Source: Bacteroidia bacterium
GTDB lineage: Bacteria; Bacteroidota; Ignavibacteria; SZUA-365
Assembly: GCA_027493955.1 (NCBI GenBank)
Contig: JAOSJT010000001.1
Coordinates: 3,397,131-3,461,130 of the forward strand
Length of the DNA stretch: 64,000 nt
Direction: 5' to 3'
This document shows positions 6,890-56,884 of the stretch, piece after piece. The notes under the pieces were generated by a model that ran no database searches, was not told the DNA's origin, and saw only the letters and a list, made by a program, of their open reading frames with translations. Each line of letters begins with the position of its first letter. Positions within the stretch are counted from its first letter, which is position 1. A program made the position numbers and the translations under genes.

Positions 6890-8050
6890 TCAGGTCATTC
6901 GTCTGCGCGAGCGTCTGGCTCCCCCGCCATTGCCGGTGAAGAGACTATCGAGATTCATGGCCTCGATCTGCATCAACAGCTCACGGTTGCTCCGGGAGCG
7001 CCGCATCAGATCCAGCAAACCCTGCATCGCCTCGCGATTGGTCCCTTCGAGGAGCGCACGACGAAGTTTGTAATGCGCCTCGAGATCAGCACCAAGGAGC
7101 AGCTCCTCTTTTCGGGTACCCGAAAGCTGAATGTTGATCGCGGGGAAAATTCTCTGATCGGCGAGCTCGCGCTCAAGCACGATTTCGGCGTTGCCTGTTC
7201 CCTTGAATTCCTGAAAAATCAGTTCATCCATGGCGGACCCGGTGTCCACGAGTATCGTGGCGAGTATCGTAAGCGATCCTCCATGCTCGATATTGCGTGA
7301 TGCACCGAAAATCCTTTTTGGTATTTCAAGTGCCCGGGCGTCGATGCCGCCGGACATGATTCGACCGCTGCCTTTAATCCCGGCATTGAACGCGCGTCCG
7401 AGGCGCGTAAGCGAATCGAGGAGGATGACGACGTCCTTCCCCACTTCCACCTGTCTCTTGGCGTATTCAAGCGTCAGATGTGCGATGCGTGCATGCGAAG
7501 CAAAATCCCTGTCGTTGCTGCTTGCGAAAACCCTTGCCCGCACAGCCCGCTCCATTTCCGTCACTTCCTCAGGTCGTTCGTCCACCAACAGAAGAAGGAG
7601 CTCCAGATCGCGATGATTCCGGGATATGGCCTCGGCAATTTTCTGCATCAGCACAGTTTTCCCGGCACGAGGCGGAGAGACGATCAATGCGCGCTGTCCA
7701 CGGCCTATCGGTGTGATGAGATCTATGACGCGCGTCGTAGTATCCCCGCACTCAAGGCGAATTCTTTTATCCGGTGCGATGGCGGTTTGCCGCGTCAGTT
7801 CCAAAACATGCTGATACTGCGTGGGGGGAATGCCATTGATGTCGTGAATGGACGCGAGTTGAACCTGATGGTTCTTCTCTCTCGCTATGCCGGTCACATA
7901 ACAACCCTCCCGCAAAGCGAACTCGCGGATCATCCCCGTAGAGACGTACGGGTCGTGTTGGGTACGGTAAAATTCCTTCGAGAACTGGCGCAGGAATCCG
8001 AACCCCTTTGATTCGATTTCGAGCACCCCTCGGCACTCACGTTCTCTCAT
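6890..8050 (-). CDS. rho: Transcription termination factor Rho (short form)
   Basis: Hexameric RNA-dependent ATPase that terminates transcription. The product is 386 aa from the ATG at 8050. An N-terminal RNA-binding domain holds 'GVLEIESKGFGFLR' and 'DPYVSTGMIREF'. The RecA-like core carries the P-loop 'SPPRAGKT' (usual form APPKAGKT), 'LLLVDERPEEV', the Q-loop region 'GSGRIMSGGIDARAL' and 'IFQEFKGTGNAEIVL'. The extended N-terminal region common in Bacteroidota Rho is missing, so this could be a compact or second Rho. An upstream GTG at 8101 is possible, but a promoter-like site ends just upstream of it, which favours 8050. A CCGTC/GACGG hairpin lies in the presumed leader. Confidence 0.9.
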   Translation of the reverse strand: MRERECRGVLEIESKGFGFLRQFSKEFYRTQHDPYVSTGMIREFALREGCYVTGIAREKNHQVQLASIHDINGIPPTQYQHVLELTRQTAIAPDKRIRLECGDTTTRVIDLITPIGRGQRALIVSPPRAGKTVLMQKIAEAISRNHRDLELLLLLVDERPEEVTEMERAVRARVFASSNDRDFASHARIAHLTLEYAKRQVEVGKDVVILLDSLTRLGRAFNAGIKGSGRIMSGGIDARALEIPKRIFGASRNIEHGGSLTILATILVDTGSAMDELIFQEFKGTGNAEIVLERELADQRIFPAINIQLSGTRKEELLLGADLEAHYKLRRALLEGTNREAMQGLLDLMRRSRSNRELLMQIEAMNLDSLFTGNGGGARRSRRRMT

Positions 8051-8102
8051 ACTTCCCTTAAGTACGAAATGGATGGGAGATAAGCCGTCCTTTGACGGCA
8101 CT

Positions 8103-8133
8103 TAAATATACGCCATTGTGCAGCGGCATCAAA
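8103..8133 (-). promoter_or_regulatory. Candidate FCB-type promoter of rho
   Basis: On the minus strand TTTG (8130-8133), 19 nt, then TATATTTA (8103-8110). This closely fits the Bacteroidota -33/-7 consensus TTTG and TAnnTTTG. The predicted start of transcription near 8095 lies downstream of the GTG at 8101 and so supports the ATG at 8050. Confidence 0.5.
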
Positions 8134-8680
8134 ACCATACCACGACTGTCATACGGATTGACTCGCTTCTCCTTTCTCCGGGATACACTCTACCGTATCC
8201 GAAGTACCTTCGCGCCCGGGATACCGATGCCTGGCTGAACGGTGCTTCTCAACTCCGACGATCAGCAGCGGAGGGATATTCGCGCCGTTACGAAAATCTG
8301 ATTTCATTGCTGATGAATCGGTCTCGGCACTCACCAGGCCGAACGTACCTCTGCGTATCCTCTTGACGCCGCTTGCTTTTACGACTGCGGCAAGCCGATG
8401 CAATTCAGCGATGATATACGATCCCGACGATATGAATGAGCCGACCCTGAACGGATGCGAAGGGTAAGCATTGTCCTACGCAGTCAATCCCGTGCATCAT
8501 TCCGCTACCCGCTTCCCCGGCTGAGACGAATCCGTTTTTACATTTTTTCGCTTCGCGCGTTCCTCCCCACGGGATCGAACGTCCTGTGATGGTTCGATCC
8601 TATGGGCGTGAGCGATACCGGGTGACCTTTGGCGTATCATGCGGTCGTTGTTTTTTTCTCACCTTCACAAGGACCTCTTC
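8134..8680. other. Intergenic region between rho and a TonB receptor
   Basis: Nothing convincing was found in this stretch. Short frames on both strands lack domains and mirror each other in length, as expected by chance in GC-rich DNA. Confidence 0.5.
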
Positions 8681-10990
8681 ATGTTTTCCACGCTTCGCAC
8701 CCTTCTCTATATCACCATTCTCCTTCTGTATTCGTTTACCGACTTCTCTCACGCGCAACAAAGCGCTCCGACAGGCTCCATTCATGGAACCGTTGCGGAT
8801 GCGTCCGGAGGAGCACCCCTGCCCGGCGCGAATATTCTTCTCATCAATAGCACGTTCGGCACCGCTACCGATGCCCAAGGCCGCTATAAGCTTGGCAACG
8901 TCCCGGTCGGGACCTGGTCGTTGCGTGTGACTTTCATGGGCTATGAAGCGGCGGTGATTACGGATGTGGTTGTGCGGCCGGGACGCGTCACGTTCGTGGA
9001 GGCACGACTCACCTCCGCTACCTTCGAAACCGATGAGGTGGAGGTGACGGCCGGATATTTCCGCAAGCGCGAGTCCGAGCCGGTGAGTCTGGCGGGCTTC
9101 TCGGGTGAAGAAATCCGTCGCTCACCCGGCTCCGCTGGCGATGTCAGCCGCATCATGATGGTGCTGCCCTCGGTGGCCAAGGTCAACGATCAGTCCAATA
9201 GCCTTATCGTTCGCGGAGGGAGTCCGTTGGAAAACGCCTTCTTCATCGATGGTATAGAAATACCGAACATCAACCATTTCCCCGCGCAGGGCAGTTCGGG
9301 CGGACCCCTCGGCATTCTGCCTGTGGATATGATCGGCGACGTGAGCTTCCTGGCCGGCGGCTTCCCCGCGCGTTTCGGCGACAAGCTCTCGGCTGTCATG
9401 GATATCACGCTGCGCGACGGTAACCGCGAAGCCACCGACGCGCAGCTTGATCTGAATTTCGCTGGCTTCGGTGCGCAAATCGAGGGTCCGCTCGGCAGCG
9501 GATCGTATCTGCTCTCGGCGCGGCGAAGCTATCTCGATCTTCTCGTAAAGGCTGTGGACGTCGGCAGCACCGTCGCTCCCTGGTATGGCGATGCGCATGC
9601 GAAAATCGTACTCAATCCCTCGGCCGCGCATCGGCTGAGCGTGCTTGGGCAGTTCAGCGACGATCACAACGATCCCGACGCGCAGGCGGCAGTGGACAAC
9701 GACATGCAGTATTACGGTCCGCAGAACATCTACAACGGCACTCTGGGCCTCTCCTGGCGCGCGATGTGGAGCGAAAGCGTGTATAGCACGAGTACACTGT
9801 CGTATACGGGCATGTGGTTCAGGGAGCGCTTCAGGAAGACGGGCTCGAACGAGGATGTGTTTTCTAACGACTCGCGGGAGAGCTGGCTCGCGCTGCGCAG
9901 CGCCACGCATGTGCGCCTGGGCGCCGCAGCGTCAATTGAAGCCGGCTTCGATGCAAAGGGATTGTGGAACAGCTATGAAAATCGCTACGCAGCCATACCC
10001 GATGCGCTTGGTATGTCGCAACCGGAGCGCCTGTTTGCGGAGGACGTTTCATCCACACTGCTGGGACTCCATGCTTCGATGAGCATCACACCGGCAGCGC
10101 CACTGAGCGTCACGTTCGGACTGCGAGCGGATCACAGCAGCTGGAACAGCAGCACGAAGCTGTCGCCGCGCGTGTCGGCGTCGTACCGTGTGGGTGCAAC
10201 CACGACGGTGAGCGCGGGTGCCGGCATATACACGCAGACTCTGCCGTTGTTGCTGCTTGCGCAGGACAGGAGCAACGAAAAACTTCGCAATCCGCGCTCC
10301 ACGCAGGCCGTGCTGGGCATCTCGCAGTTGCTTACCGAGAGCACGATGCTAACCGTGGAGGGCTATTACAAGAAGGGCGAGCGCTTCCCCATCGATCCAG
10401 CGCAGCCGGCGCTTTTTCTGGTGGATGAGCTGTCGTACCGCTACGGATTCTTCACGGGACACGGACCGCTCACGGACGTCGGTACGTCGCGCTCGTACGG
10501 CGGAGAGGTGATTCTGCAGAAAAAGCTGGCGCGAGATGTGTACGGTCTCGCCAGCGCCTCGCTCTCTCGCTCAGAATACACCGGTGCCGACGGCGCAACC
10601 TATGCGCGCGTGTACGACAACCGCGTGCAGTTCAATATCGAAGGCGGATACAAAATCGATGAGAATTGGGAGCTGAGTCTGCGCTGGATATTTGCCGGCG
10701 GCGTACCCTACACGCCGTTCGACATCGAGGCATCGCGTGCCAACGACACCGAGGTGCTGGATGAGGCGCGCATCAACAGCGAGCGGCATCCGGACTATCA
10801 TTCGATGAACCTGCGCGTGGACCATCGCTTCCACTTCGCCTCATCGAATCTCGTGCTCTACCTCAGCGTGTGGAATGTGTACAACCGCAAAAACGTTGCC
10901 GCATACATCTGGGACACGGTCAACAAGCAGCCCAAGCGCCTGTATCAATGGGGCGTGCTGCCGATCATTGGTGTGGAGTATGAGCTGTAA
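8681..10990 (+). CDS. TonB-dependent outer-membrane receptor with carboxypeptidase-like domain
   Basis: An outer-membrane transporter of 769 aa. The signal peptide spans about residues 1-26 ('...TDFSHAQQ'). A CarboxypepD_reg-like domain follows ('GSIHGTVADASGGAPLPGAN...GTATDAQGRYKL', about 30-115). Then comes the plug, with 'SNSLIVRGGSPLENAFFIDG', and a long 22-strand-type barrel ending in an alternating hydrophobic tail with 'GVEYEL'. The carboxypeptidase-like N-domain is typical of FCB TonB receptors. No SusD or DUF4249 partner lies downstream, so the substrate cannot be inferred. The ATG at 8681 is chosen for the signal peptide and AAGGA upstream; an in-frame ATG at 8639 is possible. Confidence 0.9.
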   Translation: MFSTLRTLLYITILLLYSFTDFSHAQQSAPTGSIHGTVADASGGAPLPGANILLINSTFGTATDAQGRYKLGNVPVGTWSLRVTFMGYEAAVITDVVVRPGRVTFVEARLTSATFETDEVEVTAGYFRKRESEPVSLAGFSGEEIRRSPGSAGDVSRIMMVLPSVAKVNDQSNSLIVRGGSPLENAFFIDGIEIPNINHFPAQGSSGGPLGILPVDMIGDVSFLAGGFPARFGDKLSAVMDITLRDGNREATDAQLDLNFAGFGAQIEGPLGSGSYLLSARRSYLDLLVKAVDVGSTVAPWYGDAHAKIVLNPSAAHRLSVLGQFSDDHNDPDAQAAVDNDMQYYGPQNIYNGTLGLSWRAMWSESVYSTSTLSYTGMWFRERFRKTGSNEDVFSNDSRESWLALRSATHVRLGAAASIEAGFDAKGLWNSYENRYAAIPDALGMSQPERLFAEDVSSTLLGLHASMSITPAAPLSVTFGLRADHSSWNSSTKLSPRVSASYRVGATTTVSAGAGIYTQTLPLLLLAQDRSNEKLRNPRSTQAVLGISQLLTESTMLTVEGYYKKGERFPIDPAQPALFLVDELSYRYGFFTGHGPLTDVGTSRSYGGEVILQKKLARDVYGLASASLSRSEYTGADGATYARVYDNRVQFNIEGGYKIDENWELSLRWIFAGGVPYTPFDIEASRANDTEVLDEARINSERHPDYHSMNLRVDHRFHFASSNLVLYLSVWNVYNRKNVAAYIWDTVNKQPKRLYQWGVLPIIGVEYEL

Positions 10991-48290: not shown

Positions 48291-50027
48291 TTACAGAACA
48301 GTGAAGGTACGGTGTGTCAGGTTGTTGCCCTGGCGTAATGAGAGTTGATAGTTGCCGGGCACGAGGCCGGCTATGGGCAGGAGATAGGTTTGCGTCGAGC
48401 CGTCGGACAGAAACTCATGCGTCGCCAAAACGCGGCCGAGCATGTCGCGGATTTCCAGATACAATGGCGCCTCAGCGCCGCCGGATACGGTGACGTTTAT
48501 CGCACCCGCAGCAAGCGTCACCGGATTCGGGTACAGCGTCAGATCGAGCTGCGTAGGTCGTGGCACCGCCGCAACTTCGGTGAGCAACTTCCTGGTGCCG
48601 AGGTAGATCTGGAATTTATGGTCCAGAAATAGTGGTCCTTGGCTCCCCCCTTTTCCCAGCACTATGATATCGTCGATTCCGTCTCCGTTGACATCACCAA
48701 TGTCGTAGGCGCCACCTTGCATATTATCGAGTGATACTATGGTGCCGAAGTGTCCCGTCGGTTGTCGGATGAGACCCGCGTTGGACATGGGGAAAAGGTA
48801 GTACAGAAGGCCATCGGGAACCGGAAGGGTGGCCCAGCTTATGAACAGATCGCGCGTGCCGTCGCCGTTCATGTCGCCGACGGGATGGATGCTCATGGGA
48901 CTGATCAAACCGTTGACATCCGTCCACGGATTGCGTATCGAGTCGTTGGGCAGTATTGTTTCCGGGAGCTCGGCCGAGCCGAGAAAGACCAGAGGGTCGC
49001 CGTACTTGCGATGCGCGTTGCCATCCACGATATCATCACAGCCGTCACCGTTCACGTCATAAATCGCGCTCCAGAGCATTTTCGGAACCCAGCCGCTGTC
49101 CGAGCGCAGCACGCGTGATGGCGTAGTGGCCAGACCCGAGCGGTTGCCGAGATAAAGATCCCAGACATACGCGCGTTTCATGGCGTCAATACTGAAGCTG
49201 ACTTGCACCATGAAATCGTCGCAGCCGTCTCCATTGATATCGCCCGTCATGACGTCCAATGGCGAGTCGGTATCCGTGTAGGTCGATGCGTGGATACAAT
49301 CTATCCGTACCGACGGCTCCGCCGGAAAGGTAGGGCCGCCAAGAAAGAGGAGCATCCGTCTGCGCGGGAATTGCTGTCCGGTATTTTCCGTCGTCAACAG
49401 ATCCATCCATCCGTCTCCATTGTAATCCAGCGCCTGCAGGGAAGGGCGCCATGGTTGGCCATCCTGATGGCTCCAGGATCCCCAGTACTTGCCGGAGTCG
49501 CCGCGCAACAGCACGTCGGGCTCGGCCGCGAACCACGGCTCCTCCGCGCGTTGGTAATAGATACGGATACAACCGCGGCGGTCGGGATCCATTTCGCGGT
49601 TGGCATAGCGCACCGCATTGGCGATATCCATACGCCCGTCGTTGTTAAAATCCGCCGATATCTGCGCGCTGCCCCCGCCGGGGAGCATCAGCACCGGGTC
49701 CTTGCTCAACGGGTCTCCGCCGAGAAAAATGAACGTCGTGTCCGCCTTCGAGGATACAGCGAAATCGTCATACCCGTCGCCGTTGATATCGCCCAGCGCG
49801 CAGCTCCAGGCCGAGAAACCAGGATTCTGCGTCTTGTACAACGTGAGCCAGATCTGGATTTGATAGGTGTCGGGAGCATCCGCTATCGAACTCCATCCGC
49901 CACCGGCGTCGGAGGGAATCTGCGCCGTAACGGACCACAACGGCTGTAACAGTAAAAAGCAGAACATGAGCATCGCGACGCGGCGGCATGGAGCCCCGCG
50001 CGCGACCGCGAAAGGAAGCAGTACCAT
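48291..50027 (-). CDS. FG-GAP/VCBS repeat protein with T9SS sorting domain
   Basis: A 578-aa secreted protein. The ATG at 50027 is preceded by a perfect Shine-Dalgarno AAGGAGG about 6 bp upstream, which fixes the start. The signal peptide is about 1-35 ('LWSVTAQ'). The body is a probable seven-bladed beta-propeller with seven calcium loops: 'GDINGDGYDD', 'ADFNNDGRMD', 'LDYNGDGWMD', 'GDINGDGCDD', 'YDVNGDGCDD', 'GDMNGDGTRD' and 'GDVNGDGIDD'. The C-terminal ~80 residues are a T9SS type A sorting domain ('LTLYPNPVTLAAGAINVTV', 'LEIRDMLGRVLATHEFL', 'LVPGNYQLSL'). Such proteins act in adhesion or surface binding. Confidence 0.9.
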   Translation of the reverse strand: MVLLPFAVARGAPCRRVAMLMFCFLLLQPLWSVTAQIPSDAGGGWSSIADAPDTYQIQIWLTLYKTQNPGFSAWSCALGDINGDGYDDFAVSSKADTTFIFLGGDPLSKDPVLMLPGGGSAQISADFNNDGRMDIANAVRYANREMDPDRRGCIRIYYQRAEEPWFAAEPDVLLRGDSGKYWGSWSHQDGQPWRPSLQALDYNGDGWMDLLTTENTGQQFPRRRMLLFLGGPTFPAEPSVRIDCIHASTYTDTDSPLDVMTGDINGDGCDDFMVQVSFSIDAMKRAYVWDLYLGNRSGLATTPSRVLRSDSGWVPKMLWSAIYDVNGDGCDDIVDGNAHRKYGDPLVFLGSAELPETILPNDSIRNPWTDVNGLISPMSIHPVGDMNGDGTRDLFISWATLPVPDGLLYYLFPMSNAGLIRQPTGHFGTIVSLDNMQGGAYDIGDVNGDGIDDIIVLGKGGSQGPLFLDHKFQIYLGTRKLLTEVAAVPRPTQLDLTLYPNPVTLAAGAINVTVSGGAEAPLYLEIRDMLGRVLATHEFLSDGSTQTYLLPIAGLVPGNYQLSLRQGNNLTHRTFTVL

Positions 50028-50253
50028 GAGTACCTCCTTATTGTGTTTGAAAATATCCGCCATTCCGGGCGGTGCGGCATATTGCGAATAGTCCATCATA
50101 CATACGGATGACACATCAAACAGGAAATAATTCCCATCAATAAACAATTTGCACCCTCCTGTGAGGACGAGACGCACGGCACGAGAAGGATAAGACCAAA
50201 GTCTTTCCGGAGTAAGAATAACACATGAGACACCGAAAAGTTACTGGGAGGTT

Positions 50254-50655: not shown

Positions 50656-52827
50656 ATGATCCGCTGTATGCAATCTCAACCTGTTCGCGTCACGCCATTG
50701 ATACTCCCACGCATCGTTTTTCTCCTGTGCCTGTCGCTGTGGGGCCTTCCTGTCGATGCGCAACCACTTCCCGTGATCCCGCTGCCCGTGTCCGCCGATA
50801 CGCTTCCCGGGTACTTTCTGCTGCATGCCGACTGTGTCATACTCGCGCATCCCGCCATGGAACAACAGGCGCGACTGCTTCCCGCATGGACCGGCATGCC
50901 GCTGTCCGTCCATATCGACACCGACGAGGCCAACACCCGTGCGGGCAACGCGATACGCTTCGTACTGGACACGAGCGTCTCCCATCGTGATGGGTATGAG
51001 CTCCGTATCGAGCCGCAAGGTCTGCGCATTCACGCGCGGAGCGATACCGGTGCCTTCTACGCCCTTCAGACGTTGAGGCAACTCCTGCCCGCCTCACTGA
51101 TGGGCGGCTACCGCTTCGCGGCGATCCCTGTGCAGTGCGCGATAATACGCGATGAACCCCGTTTCGAATGGCGCGGCTTCATGCTCGATTGCAGCAGACA
51201 CTTCTTTTCCGTGGATTTCGTCAAACGCATGCTCGACCGCATGGCACTGTTGAAACTCAACCGCTTTCATTGGCATTTGACGGACGATCAGGGTTGGCGA
51301 CCGGAGATCACCCGTTTTCCGAAGCTCATTGAAGTCGGCGCATGGCGCGACCGCGGCAGCGATATGTACGGCGGGTATTACACGAAAGACGACATGCGCG
51401 ACATCATTGCCTACGCGGCGGAGCGCTTCATCATGGTGATACCGGAGATAGACATGCCCGGGCACAGCACCGCCGCGCTCGTTTCCTATCCCGTACTGGG
51501 ATGCACGCAGCTTCCCGTCCCAGTTTCCAACACCTGGGGAATACACGGCACCGTACTCTGCGCCGGACGCGAGTCCACGTTCGATTTCGTCGACGGCGTT
51601 ATTCAGGAAATCGCGGAGCTCTTTCCCGGTCCCTACATTCACCTCGGCGGAGACGAGGTTTTATACGAGGCCTGGAACAATTGCGACGCGTGCAAACAGC
51701 GGAGGGTCGCCGAAGGCCTCGCCAATGAGCATGAGCTGCAGAGCTGGTTCATGCATCGGGCGGCGGCCATCGTCCAGCGGTATGGAAAAAAGGTGATCGG
51801 GTGGAACGAAATGATGATCGCCGGAGGTCCTCCCGGTGCCATCATACAGATCTGGCAGGATATGAACCTCGCCGAACAAGCGCTGCTCGCGAGTCATAAA
51901 ACCATCATTTCACACTATCGTTACACCTACTTCGACTACGGCCACGATGTGACACCCGGCCTAAAAACCTATTTCTTCGATCCCGCACCGGCGCAGCTTC
52001 TGAACATCGATCCCGATGGCGTACTCGGTGTGGAGGCCTGTTTGTGGTCGGAGTCGTCACCCTCACCCGAAACCGCGTACGAAAACACGCTGCCGCGGCT
52101 CGCCTATTTCGCGGAGACGGCATGGACTCCATTTAATTTGCGCGACACCGTGAGCATACAGCGGCGTGTCGCCGCGTTTGGCGGAATGTGGACCATGAAT
52201 GACGATGTGTTCTGGCGCGATCCAGCAATCATGTGGGATGACGGACGTCCCCTGACCGTGCTTTCCGCTGAACAGATGGACGAAAAGCGTTTCCTCGTCA
52301 CGTTTTCCGACAGTGTCCGCTCCTTTGCCGAGATCCTCCACGCGGAGATTACTCCCCCGCCTCTCATAATTCCCCCTGTCGCGATGACGGCGCCCAATGC
52401 TGTCGTGGTCGATCTCGGAGCAATACCGAACGGAATCCCATTTTCACTGGGGCTCTCCGCCTTCAGAAAATCGACAAACCCCTGGGTGTTCGCAATAGAT
52501 TCCGGCAGGGTCGAGGGAAGCCCTGTCTTGTCTGTTCTGAGAGGTCCCGCGGTTGCAGACACCTTTTTCACTTTCCCTAATCCGGTGTCCAAAGCCGCAC
52601 AAGCCGGCAGCATCTCGATGTTTCTCAAATTGTCCTTCGGTGGACAGATCCTCGTGACCCTGCACGACATGCTGGGCAGAGAAATTCGTGTCCTCGCCAG
52701 GGGTGAAATGTTTTCAGGTCTCCGTCTTTTGCACCTGGATATACGTGATTTGAGCGCTGGATCCTGGTATATACGTGTTGCCGGCACGAATTCGTCCACG
52801 GTGACGCGCTTCATCGTTCTGCGTTAA
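50656..52827 (+). CDS. GH20 beta-N-acetylhexosaminidase with T9SS sorting domain
   Basis: A secreted hydrolase of 723 aa that removes terminal N-acetylglucosamine or N-acetylgalactosamine by substrate-assisted catalysis. The signal peptide ends near 'LPVDAQP' (about residue 35). A GH20b-like N-domain covers about 40-170. The TIM barrel carries 'FEWRGFMLDCSRHFF', 'LNRFHWHLTDDQGWR', the catalytic pair Asp333-Glu334 in 'HLGGDEV', 'VIGWNEM' and 'ACLWSE'. The last ~80 residues match a T9SS type A sorting domain ('FFTFPNPVSKAAQAG', 'LHDMLGREIRVLARG'). It probably acts outside the cell on chitin- or glycan-derived sugars. The first ATG is 50656; 50668 is an alternative. Confidence 0.95.
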   Translation: MIRCMQSQPVRVTPLILPRIVFLLCLSLWGLPVDAQPLPVIPLPVSADTLPGYFLLHADCVILAHPAMEQQARLLPAWTGMPLSVHIDTDEANTRAGNAIRFVLDTSVSHRDGYELRIEPQGLRIHARSDTGAFYALQTLRQLLPASLMGGYRFAAIPVQCAIIRDEPRFEWRGFMLDCSRHFFSVDFVKRMLDRMALLKLNRFHWHLTDDQGWRPEITRFPKLIEVGAWRDRGSDMYGGYYTKDDMRDIIAYAAERFIMVIPEIDMPGHSTAALVSYPVLGCTQLPVPVSNTWGIHGTVLCAGRESTFDFVDGVIQEIAELFPGPYIHLGGDEVLYEAWNNCDACKQRRVAEGLANEHELQSWFMHRAAAIVQRYGKKVIGWNEMMIAGGPPGAIIQIWQDMNLAEQALLASHKTIISHYRYTYFDYGHDVTPGLKTYFFDPAPAQLLNIDPDGVLGVEACLWSESSPSPETAYENTLPRLAYFAETAWTPFNLRDTVSIQRRVAAFGGMWTMNDDVFWRDPAIMWDDGRPLTVLSAEQMDEKRFLVTFSDSVRSFAEILHAEITPPPLIIPPVAMTAPNAVVVDLGAIPNGIPFSLGLSAFRKSTNPWVFAIDSGRVEGSPVLSVLRGPAVADTFFTFPNPVSKAAQAGSISMFLKLSFGGQILVTLHDMLGREIRVLARGEMFSGLRLLHLDIRDLSAGSWYIRVAGTNSSTVTRFIVLR

Positions 52828-52978: not shown

Positions 52979-53010
52979 CTGTAACCTTCGGCCCCTTCAT
53001 GTGTTATTCA
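52979..53010 (+). promoter_or_regulatory. Candidate ECF sigma-dependent promoter
   Basis: CTGTAACCTT (52979-52988), resembling the AAC-containing -35 of ECF promoters, is followed after about 16 bp by GTTATTC (53003-53009). It sits 60-90 bp upstream of the ECF sigma gene, where autoregulation would be expected. No other copy was found nearby to confirm it. Confidence 0.4.
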
Positions 53011-53071
53011 TAGGTGACTTCAAGGCGGACGGCACCCTGCAACCGCCCCACGCATACAGAGAACCTGCACG

Positions 53072-53635
53072 ATGTCCGGAAAAAAAACGGCCAACATACC
53101 GGACGTGGACCTGTTCTTCAGCCTGGCAGGAGACAAAAAGGTTGCGGAAGAGGCCTTCGCCGAGCTGTACGCCCGGTACGCGGGACGCGTGTATGCCTAC
53201 TGTTACCGATGCACCTCCGACCCGGACGAAGCACAGGATATTTTCCAGGAAACCTTTCTCAGGTTCTATGAAAGCGCCAAACGCGTGGATTCGATGAGCA
53301 ATGTGATCGGTTTCATTCTGAAAATCTCCAGGAATCTGATACTGAATCACCGGCGCAACAAAAAACATGCTATCGACATCGAAAGTATCGAATTACTTGC
53401 CGGACCCGGTGCACTGGATGGCTCGGAGCTGCTCGGCATGCTCACCACCGCGCTCGAAATGCTGCCCGACGACTACCGCGAAGCCTTCGTGCTCCGTGAA
53501 TACGAAGGCCTCTCCTACAATCAGATCGCTGAAATTCTCGATACATCGCTTACCAATGTCAAGGTCCGCATTTTCCGGGCCAAACAGCGTCTGCGCAAGA
53601 TACTCTCCCCGTACCTTGCCGATGCCGCGCACTGA
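53072..53635 (+). CDS. ECF-family RNA polymerase sigma factor
   Basis: A 187-aa alternative sigma factor. Region 2 covers about 22-95: 'FAELYARYAGRVYAYCYRCTSDPDEAQDIFQETFLRFYE' read in parts, including the DNA-melting segment. Region 4 covers about 125-180 with 'LPDDYREAFVLREYEGLSYNQIAEIL' in parts and the helix-turn-helix 'TNVKVRIFRAKQRLRK'. It has no extra C-terminal domain. Its gene is followed 35 bp later by a predicted membrane anti-sigma protein, the usual ECF arrangement, then by two vWA genes that are likely part of its regulon. It probably responds to an envelope signal. Confidence 0.93.
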   Translation: MSGKKTANIPDVDLFFSLAGDKKVAEEAFAELYARYAGRVYAYCYRCTSDPDEAQDIFQETFLRFYESAKRVDSMSNVIGFILKISRNLILNHRRNKKHAIDIESIELLAGPGALDGSELLGMLTTALEMLPDDYREAFVLREYEGLSYNQIAEILDTSLTNVKVRIFRAKQRLRKILSPYLADAAH

Positions 53636-53670
53636 CCAACGAATGAAACATCAGGAATAGAGACGAAGAA

Positions 53671-54810
53671 ATGACAGAGCCCACGGATTTTATGGAATCG
53701 CGCATGCTGCATGCCTACCTCGACGGCGAGCTGGACGGCCCGCATGAAGAGGCGCTTTTTCGCATGCTCTCCGAGGACGGTGCGCTCCGGGCCGAGATGC
53801 AGGATCATCTCGCCATTCGTAAAGCTGTGCAGCATGATACGCAGGCCTTTACTCCTCCCGCCGCGGCAACAGCGGCCATATTCGGCGCACTCGGCTTCAG
53901 CATCCCTGCAGCCACTACCGCTGCCGCCTCCGGTGCGGGAAAGATCTGGTTCGCCTCCGGATCGGCCATACTCGCGGTCGTGACCTCGATGCTCCTTTCC
54001 ACACTTTTCACGAGTACGGATCAGCAGATCTACGCCGACGCCGGCGTACCCGCTGCGCCCGTCATGACGCTGAACATCGAGGAATCCGCGCCACTCGGCG
54101 ATATTGTTTCGTCAGCTCCAGCCGACACACGCCAAGGAAGGTCCGTATCCGACTCCCAACCAGTCCTGGAGGAGTTGCCAAAGCCCACCGCGTTCGAAGA
54201 GCAGCCGGAACAACTCGTCGAAATCGAATGTCTGCCTCCCGCTGCCTTTGGCGAACGCGGCGAGCCGGACCTGCGCGGCCTGCGAGCGCCTTTCATCCCC
54301 TACGTCAGTTTCCTGCGCATGCCGGTGGATGGAATGATGTTCTACCTGCGTAACACAGCATCGCAGTCCAGTCCCGCAGGCACCTTCGGAGCGTCCTCCG
54401 AGCTGCTCATGAACAACCTGCATATCGGCGCATTGTACCCGCTCTCGCGGTATCACGCCCTCGGTGTGGAATTCGGAAGGGAAATCTTCCCGCAAAGCTT
54501 CGATGGCACGCTGCGCGGCGCTGTCGTGCGCTACGAACAAAGCCCCGTGGTGTATTGCGCCACAGCGGTGTATCAGCTCACTGCGGGAGAAGTGCTGCCT
54601 CTCATGCATCCCTACGCACAGATTCAAGCCGGCGCGGCGTTCAATCTCGGACCCCTTGCACGAGCCGGCCTGGGCGTAGCGGTAAAACCCTTCGAGAAGA
54701 TTTCTTTGCTCATCGGTGCCGAGGGTTCCATACTCGCATACAAGTTCCAGAATAAATGGTTTGACACGAAAAAACTCGGGCTTACCTACGGTCTCCGCTA
54801 TGAATTCTAG
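53671..54810 (+). CDS. Predicted anti-sigma factor with C-terminal barrel-like domain
   Basis: A 379-aa protein with an unusual layout. Residues 1-55 ('RMLHAYLDGELDGPHEEALF') look like a cytoplasmic anti-sigma domain without the zinc-binding His/Cys set. One transmembrane helix covers about 90-112 ('FASGSAILAVVTSMLLSTLF'). A Pro/Glu-rich linker spans about 125-205. The final ~170 residues alternate in strand-like fashion and end 'LTYGLRYEF', the C-terminal Phe pattern of outer-membrane barrels. Its position right after the ECF sigma gene supports the anti-sigma role. How one protein could span both membranes is unclear; the C-domain may be a periplasmic beta domain or be released by proteolysis. 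The next gene starts inside its last codons. Confidence 0.75.
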   Translation: MTEPTDFMESRMLHAYLDGELDGPHEEALFRMLSEDGALRAEMQDHLAIRKAVQHDTQAFTPPAAATAAIFGALGFSIPAATTAAASGAGKIWFASGSAILAVVTSMLLSTLFTSTDQQIYADAGVPAAPVMTLNIEESAPLGDIVSSAPADTRQGRSVSDSQPVLEELPKPTAFEEQPEQLVEIECLPPAAFGERGEPDLRGLRAPFIPYVSFLRMPVDGMMFYLRNTASQSSPAGTFGASSELLMNNLHIGALYPLSRYHALGVEFGREIFPQSFDGTLRGAVVRYEQSPVVYCATAVYQLTAGEVLPLMHPYAQIQAGAAFNLGPLARAGLGVAVKPFEKISLLIGAEGSILAYKFQNKWFDTKKLGLTYGLRYEF

Positions 54811-55531
54811 GCTACGCCGCTTCCTTGTCGTCCTTCTTTCCGCATGGGCGGTTGCGAGCACCAGTGCCTGTGATTCACCCTTGGGTATCGATACCCCGCG
54901 GAAGGAGTATATCGACAAGGTATCGGAAGCCGTAGCGGTGCAGTTGTGTGATCCCGTGTCCGTCGTGCTCCCCGTCGACACCGGAGTAGCAGCGACGCAC
55001 TTCTCCGCCGTGCTTGTCTTCGACGGCAGCGGCAGCATTTCCCCGCAGTTGAATCAGACGATGAAAGATGCCGGCCAGGCCTTTCTGGATTCGCTCGACG
55101 GGCAGTCGGATGAAAGCGCCGTGGTCTTTTTCAATTCCGTGGTAACCGTCTTTCAACGGATGACCACGAACGTCCCGACGCTGCGCACAGCCGTCAACGC
55201 GCTGCCGATACTCGGTGCCACCGCCATGTGGGATGGAATTTTCACGGGTTTGCTGGAACTGCAGGCACGCGGAACACATGAGCGACAGGCGCTCATCGTC
55301 ATCACCGAAACGCGCGACAACAGCAGCAGCACCGGCACGCCAACGAAAATCATCTCCCTTGCGCAGTCCATGGGCGTTCCGATATACACAATTTCGATGG
55401 CCATCAGCATAGACGAAGCAAAGCTGGCGGAGATCGCCATGGAGAGCGGAGGCCAGCATTACCGCCTGCCTTCGCATGGCAGCGTGAGCGATGTATACCG
55501 CGAAATCGTTCATCGCTTGAAGACACCCTGA
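54800..55531 (+). CDS. von Willebrand A domain lipoprotein
   Basis: A 243-aa envelope lipoprotein; lipobox 'VASTSAC' with Cys about residue 24. The vWA domain covers about 65-235. The metal site (MIDAS) has its first block 'VFDGSGSIS' (Asp-x-Ser-x-Ser) and a Thr near 'GATAMWDG', but the usual 'TDG.DN' block is 'TETRDN', so one metal ligand is altered. The start overlaps the anti-sigma stop by 11 bases, so it is translationally coupled. It and the next gene are paralogous (shared 'VFQRMTT' / 'LYQQMTT', 'GATAMWDG' / 'GATAVWDG'). It may bind protein partners at the envelope and respond to the ECF system. Confidence 0.88.
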   Translation: MNSRLRRFLVVLLSAWAVASTSACDSPLGIDTPRKEYIDKVSEAVAVQLCDPVSVVLPVDTGVAATHFSAVLVFDGSGSISPQLNQTMKDAGQAFLDSLDGQSDESAVVFFNSVVTVFQRMTTNVPTLRTAVNALPILGATAMWDGIFTGLLELQARGTHERQALIVITETRDNSSSTGTPTKIISLAQSMGVPIYTISMAISIDEAKLAEIAMESGGQHYRLPSHGSVSDVYREIVHRLKTP

Positions 55532-55597
55532 CCTTTATCTGTGAAGACGTGAACGGCTACCGGAAGTTCGGATCACAACAATACAGGAAGCACCGTC

Positions 55598-56803
55598 ATG
55601 AAACGCATTATCGCACTTTTCCTCATTCTGTTCGCGTCAGGAATACTGAACGCACAGGATCAGGTACTCCTCACTACTGCGCGAATGCAGGCCGGTACAG
55701 ATGAGGTGCAATTCACCTTGCGTATTCACTGTAACGGTGAGCCTCTCTATACCTTGTCCCCTTCGCAACTGCAGATCGCGGAAAACAGTACGCCGGTGGA
55801 GGAATTCTCCATTATCGAGCATGCCTCGCCCACCGCACGCTATCCCATCTCCGTGGCGCTGGTGATGGATGCCAGCGGCAGCATGGTGGGCGCCGGTAAT
55901 GCAGGAGCAAGGAGCGCCGGACACGATTTCGTGGATCTCATGGATGGCGTGCTCGATGAAATGACGGTGTTGTTCTTTACGAACACCGTCACCCTCTATC
56001 AGCAGATGACAACGATCAAACCAATGCTGCACGCGGCGGTGGACGCACTCTACGCGAGCGGCGCGACGGCAGTGTGGGACGGTGCGTACGCAGGACTGAC
56101 GGAGGTAGCGCAAAATGGTGTCAATCCCAAACGCGCGGTGGTGCTGCTTACCGACGGTGGGGACAATTCCAGCACGTCTTCCCCTGCGAGTGTCATCGCC
56201 AAAGCAAATCAGAGCGGAATCCGGGTATTCACTGTAGGTCTGGGCACCTCGATAAACGAATCCGAACTCAAGCTGATAGCCCAGCTTACCGGCGGATTGT
56301 ATTTCCAGACGCCGGATCCAACACAACTGCGGCTTATTTTCTCGACCATAGCAAATTTTATCGGTCGCGGCTTCGACGAATACACCATCAGCTACAAGAC
56401 TCCCGATCCTGCGGCAGCACAGCGGCAACTGACCATCGCCGTCAATGCCTGCAATCAGTCGCTGCCCGCGCAGGGGTACGTTCTGCAATACGGAACCTTG
56501 TCCACACCACCGCTTGCTTCAGCGCTTCCCTTTACGTTGCGTCTCGATCAGAATGTCCCGAATCCGGCGTCTACCTCGACGATCTTTCGCTTCTCTCTTA
56601 AAAGCACGGGTTCCCCGCAGCCCGTACGGCTCGAGCTTTTCGATGTGCTTGGGCGGCGCATCGCCACCATTTTCGATGCGTCCATCTCTGCGGGTAGTTA
56701 CAGCGTTCCCTTCGAAACGAATCAATTGTCGCAGGGTATGTATGTGATGCGGCTCAGCAGCGGTGCCGCGGTACAGTACCGCACCATGCTGTTGCAACGG
56801 TAG
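55598..56803 (+). CDS. von Willebrand A domain protein with T9SS sorting domain
   Basis: A 401-aa secreted protein. The signal peptide ends near 'GILNAQD' (about residue 19). The vWA domain covers about 85-270 with an intact MIDAS: 'LVMDASGSMVG', Thr in 'GATAVWDG' and 'LLTDGGDNSS'. A short Ig-like stretch precedes it (about 25-80). The last ~85 residues are a T9SS type A sorting domain ('LDQNVPNPASTSTIFRFSL', 'LELFDVLGRRIATIFDA', 'GMYVMRLSSGA'). It is likely displayed on or released from the surface, in contrast to its lipoprotein paralogue next door. It is the last gene of the ECF operon and is followed by a terminator. Confidence 0.92.
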   Translation: MKRIIALFLILFASGILNAQDQVLLTTARMQAGTDEVQFTLRIHCNGEPLYTLSPSQLQIAENSTPVEEFSIIEHASPTARYPISVALVMDASGSMVGAGNAGARSAGHDFVDLMDGVLDEMTVLFFTNTVTLYQQMTTIKPMLHAAVDALYASGATAVWDGAYAGLTEVAQNGVNPKRAVVLLTDGGDNSSTSSPASVIAKANQSGIRVFTVGLGTSINESELKLIAQLTGGLYFQTPDPTQLRLIFSTIANFIGRGFDEYTISYKTPDPAAAQRQLTIAVNACNQSLPAQGYVLQYGTLSTPPLASALPFTLRLDQNVPNPASTSTIFRFSLKSTGSPQPVRLELFDVLGRRIATIFDASISAGSYSVPFETNQLSQGMYVMRLSSGAAVQYRTMLLQR

Positions 56804-56822
56804 CCCCGGGCTCCGTTGATTA

Positions 56823-56863
56823 CGAAGCACCCCCCGATTCGCCTCCGGGGGGTGTTTCGTTTC
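56823..56863. terminator. Bidirectional terminator between vWA gene and htpG
   Basis: A strong stem of C6/G6 (CACCCCCC with GGGGGGTG) extended by CGAA/TTCG, with an 11-nt loop. It has a T-rich side on the plus strand (TTTCGTTTCT) and an imperfect one on the minus strand. It separates the convergent vWA and htpG genes. Confidence 0.75.
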
Positions 56864-56884
56864 TGATCTCTCTGCAATCGTCCG

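Follow-up and report, generated by a model that had tools for sequence, protein, structure and literature searches.

A conserved four-gene operon predicted to encode a Dma-like sigma switch for surface vWA and type IX proteins in a Bacteroidota lineage

The DNA that we analysed (the window, 64,000 nucleotides in length) comes from a complete genome of 5.24 Mb and contains four genes on the positive strand that form an operon (Table 1). The first encodes an ECF sigma factor in which sigma-70 regions 2 and 4 are both present (TIGR02937, 94.9 bits against a cut-off of 42.9), and it is followed by genes for a membrane anti-sigma factor, a vWA lipoprotein, and a secreted vWA protein with a type IX sorting tail. 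The ATG of the lipoprotein gene, at position 54800, gives an 11 bp overlap with the anti-sigma gene, and gaps of 35 bp and 66 bp separate the ECF gene from the anti-sigma gene and the vWA lipoprotein gene from the vWA-type IX gene, respectively. Both vWA proteins score above the cut-off of PF00092 and carry a MIDAS motif of the form DxSxS (DGSGS and DASGS in the two proteins), and the tail of the secreted protein contains a type A sorting domain (TIGR04183, 30.9 bits against a cut-off of 23, 2e-7). A previous sequence-only reading of this DNA had described a four-gene operon in this order, with genes that overlap or lie 35-67 bp apart, a strong terminator after the set, an intact MIDAS and a type IX tail, all of which the open reading frames (53072-56803), the Pfam and NCBIfam domains and the folding energy of the hairpin bear out; the start coordinate that it gave, 52979, is the base just before the promoter pattern described below. 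Searches of the window found no Rfam families, and the phage and defence libraries gave no useful matches.

Table 1 Features of the operon and of a predicted regulon member within the window.
Feature	Position	Strand	Basis
FG-GAP repeat/type IX tail surface protein, predicted regulon member	48291..50177	-	Pfam FG-GAP, TIGR04183
Second predicted promoter site, AGTAACTTT-N12-GTGTTAT	50218..50245	-	E 0.06, operon-only model
Predicted autoregulatory ECF promoter, C-TGTAACCTT-N12-GTGTTAT	52979..53007	+	Footprint, exact genome-scan match
ECF sigma factor, 187 aa	53072..53635	+	Pfam Sigma70_r2 2e-15, r4_2 1e-19
Dma-like anti-sigma factor, 379 aa	53671..54810	+	Pfam, alignment, AlphaFold
vWA lipoprotein, 243 aa, lipobox Cys24	54800..55531	+	Pfam VWA 1e-13
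Secreted vWA protein with type IX sorting tail, 401 aa	55598..56803	+	VWA 2e-13, Por_Secre_tail 5e-6
Intrinsic terminator-like hairpin	56818..56868	+	-30.7 kcal/mol, z = -6.1

We used the anti-sigma factor as the query in a search of 61 related genomes and read the flanks of the matches. Seven further genomes of the family have all four genes in unchanged order at 41-62% identity (59-62% for the ECF orthologues, in 7 genomes, and 45-54% for those of the vWA-type IX protein), and the conserved operon spans three genera, that of the window included. Since the cassette recurs across genomes, the concern voiced in the sequence-only reading that this gene order might be unique to one genome falls away. 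The htpG gene lies alongside the conserved operon except at L052, where the contig ends, and is slightly further off at L054; in one genome of the same order (L057), the ECF and anti-sigma genes and one for a vWA lipoprotein are kept. A diverged form of the four-gene cassette occurs in an eighth genome of the family, G001. The ECF/anti-sigma/lipoprotein/vWA theme occurs twice in the host genome, as separately conserved cassettes: the second (L017) encodes an ECF sigma factor, an anti-sigma factor, a lipoprotein that is not a vWA protein, and a vWA/type IX protein, and seven genomes conserve this cassette, although in two of them a contig end truncates it. Besides the window operon, at least three operons of the host genome pair an ECF gene with a Dma-like gene (that is, one with the layout of the Bacteroides Dma proteins discussed below). 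A third, family-conserved type of Dma-like cassette (L018, L148, L151, L154, L155) encodes a repeat lipoprotein of ~390 aa that starts CxSPTDPDTPRRR or similar. At L019 (G000:C1:2483000-2495500) a predicted ~408-aa lipoprotein, serpin-like by eye, is encoded directly 3′ of the Dma-like gene (7855-9246, negative strand) of another ECF/Dma-like pair; if this by-eye reading is right, a protease inhibitor adjoining an anti-sigma factor would be unusual.

The pattern TGTAACYTT-N12-GTGTTAY is common to 8 orthologous operons, in which it lies 5′ of the ECF gene within otherwise poorly alignable DNA, and a ninth operon (L106), whose ECF start had been placed too far 5′, also has it. At the window operon it occupies 52980-53007 and comprises a -35 element TGTAAC and a -10 element GTGTTA with a 15-bp spacer. 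A scan of the host genome gave 7 exact and 13 near matches (up to 2 mismatches) versus 7 for a reversed control; when at most 1 mismatch is allowed the counts are 12 and 1. The position of this promoter upstream of the sigma factor's own operon suggests positive feedback. What the sequence establishes is the operon and its conservation, the footprint of the promoter, the sites of the regulon described below and the specificity of the lipoprotein motif; the pairing of sigma with anti-sigma factor, autoregulation, and membership of the regulon are strongly implied.

Candidate promoters across the host genome were ranked with a sequence model built from the 8 operon promoters alone. The top site is that of the operon, followed by sites before a vWA giant, a secreted 245-aa protein and FG-GAP proteins, with further sites before a CotH protein, a BNR/sortilin-like protein and more vWA giants; in this genome the sites mainly precede secreted or surface genes. 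One of them lies within the window, 40 bp upstream of the start of the FG-GAP/type IX open reading frame (Table 1), and is one of three FG-GAP promoters that are recent near-copies and that we therefore count once. Of the 27 vWA genes outside the cassette, 7 have such a site in the 450 bp that precede them, where 0.02 would be expected (P~5e-16); with only 7 carrying it, most of the 27 are not predicted to be regulon members. The presence of this promoter before scattered large surface proteins suggests that the switch probably controls surface display. The sequence-only reading had proposed that envelope sensing is coupled to a surface vWA module and had counted it as a point against this if the vWA genes did not respond to the sigma factor; the promoter sites indicate that they are likely to be under its control, and the proposal fits except that the predicted output is far wider than the operon's own pair. 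A GH20 hexosaminidase gene with a weak type IX tail lies just upstream of the operon (50656-52827), and the genome scan placed no site of the TGTAACYTT-N12-GTGTTAY type before it.

Comparable sites are found in sister genomes, before vWA giants or homologues of giant parts (G002, G003, G006, G007, G010 and G012), before CarboxypepD_reg-type lipoproteins (G003, G005, G006, G008 and G010), and before homologues of the host-genome targets L204 and L206. The lipoproteins of these five sister genomes (L102, L103, L209, L216, L218) are related and all have a site, with CarboxypepD_reg repeats in the one that was scanned, and no counterpart of them is found among the host-genome targets. G001 and G004 have vWA giants, with 22 and 12 vWA matches, yet both lack the orthologous operon and any site, and the -10 element of the diverged G001 operon differs, reading GAGTTGT; we take this to indicate that the site tracks the operon's sigma factor, not vWA genes as such. 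Sites are present in G007 and G008, where no operon was detected, an absence that is uncertain because both assemblies exceed 400 contigs. In another family, L099 (G051) has an exact copy of the site before a vWA lipoprotein gene, and sites that end in GTGTTCT occur in genomes of that family too. Matches to vWA number 7-22 per genome in the order to which the host belongs versus 0-2 in other families of the class.

The anti-sigma factor has the four-part layout of the Dma type: sigma-binding helices (residues ~4-59), a transmembrane (TM) segment (92-114), a tether of ~100 residues (~115-210) and a barrel-like C-terminal beta domain (~212-379). The earlier description of it as a membrane anti-sigma factor is correct as regards the TM segment and incomplete in that a long tether and a ~170-residue beta domain come after the TM helix. 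In an alignment of 20 homologues the sigma-binding N-terminus and the C-terminal domain are conserved and the tether varies in length and sequence; most members of the class end in Phe, the window protein in ...TYGLRYEF. The N-terminal region gives below-cut-off matches to RseA_N in 5 of the 20 members and to zf-HC2 in 10, AlphaFold predicts helices at residues 4-73, and the gene lies beside an ECF gene at every locus that was read. A hydrophobic 19-mer occupies residues 92-110, with an equivalent TM segment in all 20 homologues, no secondary structure is predicted for residues ~115-188, and toward the C-terminus hydrophobicity alternates strongly every two residues. AlphaFold modelling of the full protein (7 sequences, very low confidence) gave helices, the TM segment, an unstructured stretch and then ~10 strands, and modelling of the C-terminal domain alone gave a beta meander that is better but still weak (pLDDT 51, pTM 0.52). 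Foldseek searches with the latter model returned mostly outer-membrane barrels as top matches (best E 0.15, none significant), no Pfam barrel family scored above its cut-off for this domain, and a PDB sequence search with the domain profile gave nothing significant. We consider it likely that the C-terminal domain is an outer-membrane beta-barrel, in which case the anti-sigma factor probably spans both membranes.

In a search of the phylum, full-length matches to the anti-sigma factor fall inside the class of the window and matches elsewhere cover the N-terminal domain only; the four inspected outside the class are other anti-sigma types, one of them apparently fused to a protease domain. Contigs were scanned with 8 close members, because the 20-member alignment is too diverse for this purpose. 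At L257 (G074, another class), an anti-sigma-like protein encoded after an ECF gene (982-2079) has a C-terminal region that resembles a trypsin-like/DegP protease domain.

The vWA lipoprotein starts, from its lipobox cysteine, with C24-D-S-P-L-G-I-D-T-P-R34, which fits C-x-S-P-L-x-x-D-T-P-R. Lipoproteins encoded directly 3′ of Dma-like genes often start C-x-S-P-[LIT]-x-x-[DE]-[TS]-P-R, and the bodies behind this shared anchor are unrelated, being vWA domains, repeats of ~390 residues or domains of ~175 residues. A DNA pattern for the anchor peptide has 37 matches in the 61 genomes; of the 30 that were examined, the 12 in genuine lipoproteins all come after a Dma-like gene, whereas the remaining 18 never do. 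Looser anchors (CTSPLDADAPRK, CASPLDSDAPRK, CKSPLELDVDRS and others) occur after about half of 20 further Dma-like genes from other families. The specificity of the motif argues for a working link between anti-sigma factor and lipoprotein, and we infer that the lipoprotein docks on the anti-sigma factor via its anchor peptide. We regard the vWA lipoprotein as more likely the accessory partner of the anti-sigma factor than one half of an adhesin or assembly pair, as had been suggested from sequence. The two vWA proteins had also been called paralogous. They are related (37-39% identity to each other), but certain vWA giants of the genome resemble each of them more closely, at 54% for the vWA-type IX protein and 48% for the lipoprotein; the two are thus no simple tandem duplicates, and an origin by tandem duplication is not favoured. 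The host genome also encodes, at L196-L202 and L208, a secreted family of 660-1325 aa with an N-terminal vWA domain, several of whose members have a type IX tail and one a cohesin-like domain.

The view that no system of this content has been described needs qualification, as the Dma/Das systems of Bacteroides are the same kind of switch. Dma1, Dma2 and Dma3 of Bacteroides thetaiotaomicron are dual-membrane-spanning anti-sigma factors; the Dma2 operon holds a third gene, BT_1557, and loss of Dma2 raises expression of its own operon and of neighbours (PMC13088901). All Dma proteins characterised in that study are from Bacteroides, and what they sense is unknown. The window operon likewise belongs to a member of the Bacteroidota and sets an ECF gene beside one for an anti-sigma factor with a cytoplasmic domain, a TM helix, a disordered tether and a C-terminal beta domain, a likeness to the Bacteroides proteins that rests on layout, not sequence (PMC13088901). 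By analogy of layout, it would work like Dma/Das. It differs in lying in another Bacteroidota lineage, in adding a vWA lipoprotein with a fixed anchor and a vWA type IX protein, and in its predicted regulon, where vWA and FG-GAP surface proteins take the place of vesiculation genes or PULs. The PorA/PorXY-SigP system of Porphyromonas gingivalis similarly has a type IX tail surface protein that feeds into an autoregulated ECF sigma factor with type IX-related targets, but it uses a two-component system and no envelope-spanning anti-sigma factor, and the domain of PorA is FimH-like, not vWA (PMC7712824). Cell-surface signalling, in which a TonB-dependent transducer acts through a FecR-type protein on a FecI-type sigma factor, also runs from an outer-membrane barrel through the periplasm to a sigma-binding protein of the inner membrane; there barrel and anti-sigma factor are separate proteins (PMC11637429), whereas those of the window appear to be fused, in an operon with no TonB receptor.

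We think it probable that this operon specifies a sigma switch which works across the envelope, has a lipoprotein docked to it and governs a regulon of surface vWA and type IX proteins. While the switch is off, the N-terminal cytoplasmic domain of the anti-sigma factor would hold the ECF sigma factor. The anti-sigma factor would pass through the inner membrane, cross the periplasm as a flexible tether and end in a small beta-barrel inserted in the outer membrane. The anchor peptide C-x-S-P-L-x-x-D-T-P-R would dock the lipoprotein on this protein, leaving its vWA domain to sense. A change at the surface or outer membrane, sensed by way of the barrel together with the docked vWA lipoprotein, would free the sigma factor, which would then transcribe from TGTAACYTT-N12-GTGTTAY. 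This would raise its own operon, in a positive feedback that takes in the vWA-type IX protein, and also scattered genes for large vWA proteins, FG-GAP proteins and further secreted or type IX surface proteins. The vWA/type IX protein of the operon may in turn signal to the switch, in the way that PorA acts on SigP (PMC7712824). The best candidate for the sensed signal, itself a doubtful one, is the supply or engagement of vWA surface proteins, supply being a guess.

Anti-sigma factors of class I with periplasmic sensors are the commonest kind, and the absence of a significant match to barrel families or folds, together with the weak resemblance of the anti-sigma domain to RseA/RsiW, would suit an ordinary single-membrane protein whose beta domain is a soluble periplasmic sensor, the vWA proteins being ordinary regulon members that share the operon by chance. 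We consider this unlikely in view of the ~10-strand meander, the two-residue alternation, the terminal Phe, the ~100-residue tether, the Dma layout and the preponderance of outer-membrane barrels among the Foldseek matches; moreover, a lipoprotein with the same anchor follows Dma-like genes in several families of the class. It is similarly improbable that the lipoprotein motif is a sorting signal for surface export and not a docking peptide. It does immediately follow the lipid-modified Cys, the usual place of sorting signals in lipoproteins, and acidic residues after the Cys are known in Bacteroidota export signals; a general signal would, however, occur in many lipoproteins per genome, whereas the strict pattern is as rare as noted above, and every genuine lipoprotein examined that bears it follows a Dma-like gene.

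The preferred reading, that of a trans-envelope switch, also assigns the regulon sites to the operon's own sigma factor. A TGTAAC-like -35 element is common to related ECF operons (L019, L055), so a paralogous ECF could be the one that uses them, but we find this harder still to credit: the -10 element GTGTTAY matches that of the operon's orthologues, whereas L019 has GTGTCTA and the diverged G001 operon GAGTTGT, and the two genomes with vWA giants and no orthologous operon (G001 and G004) have no sites. On another view, which takes up the adhesin or assembly module of the sequence-only reading, both vWA proteins are structural components of a single adhesive filament or surface layer that the sigma pair merely co-regulates. 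In its favour, the giants combine vWA with cohesin-like or Ig-like domains, and type IX-secreted vWA tip proteins exist, such as Mfa5 of type V fimbriae, which is likewise a vWA surface protein of the Bacteroidota but is encoded in a fimbrial operon with no sigma switch (PMC7835359). That the second cassette keeps the vWA-type IX gene next to a lipoprotein that is not a vWA protein, and that in other cassettes the same anchor bears unrelated bodies with no vWA partner, makes a joint filament improbable.

A wider interpretation, which we offer tentatively and as a rather unlikely one, is a class-wide family of switches in which the anchor C-x-S-P-L-D-x-D-x-P-R plugs interchangeable lipoprotein sensors (vWA, repeat or small beta domain) into Dma-like anti-sigma factors; here the switch would be a homeostat, the sensor vWA measuring the surface vWA supply and the sigma factor restoring it. 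The locus extends the Dma layout to another Bacteroidota lineage and offers a predicted partner lipoprotein with a short, mutable motif, together with a defined promoter and a set of targets open to testing, and it provides a candidate regulator for large vWA surface proteins, which are poorly understood.
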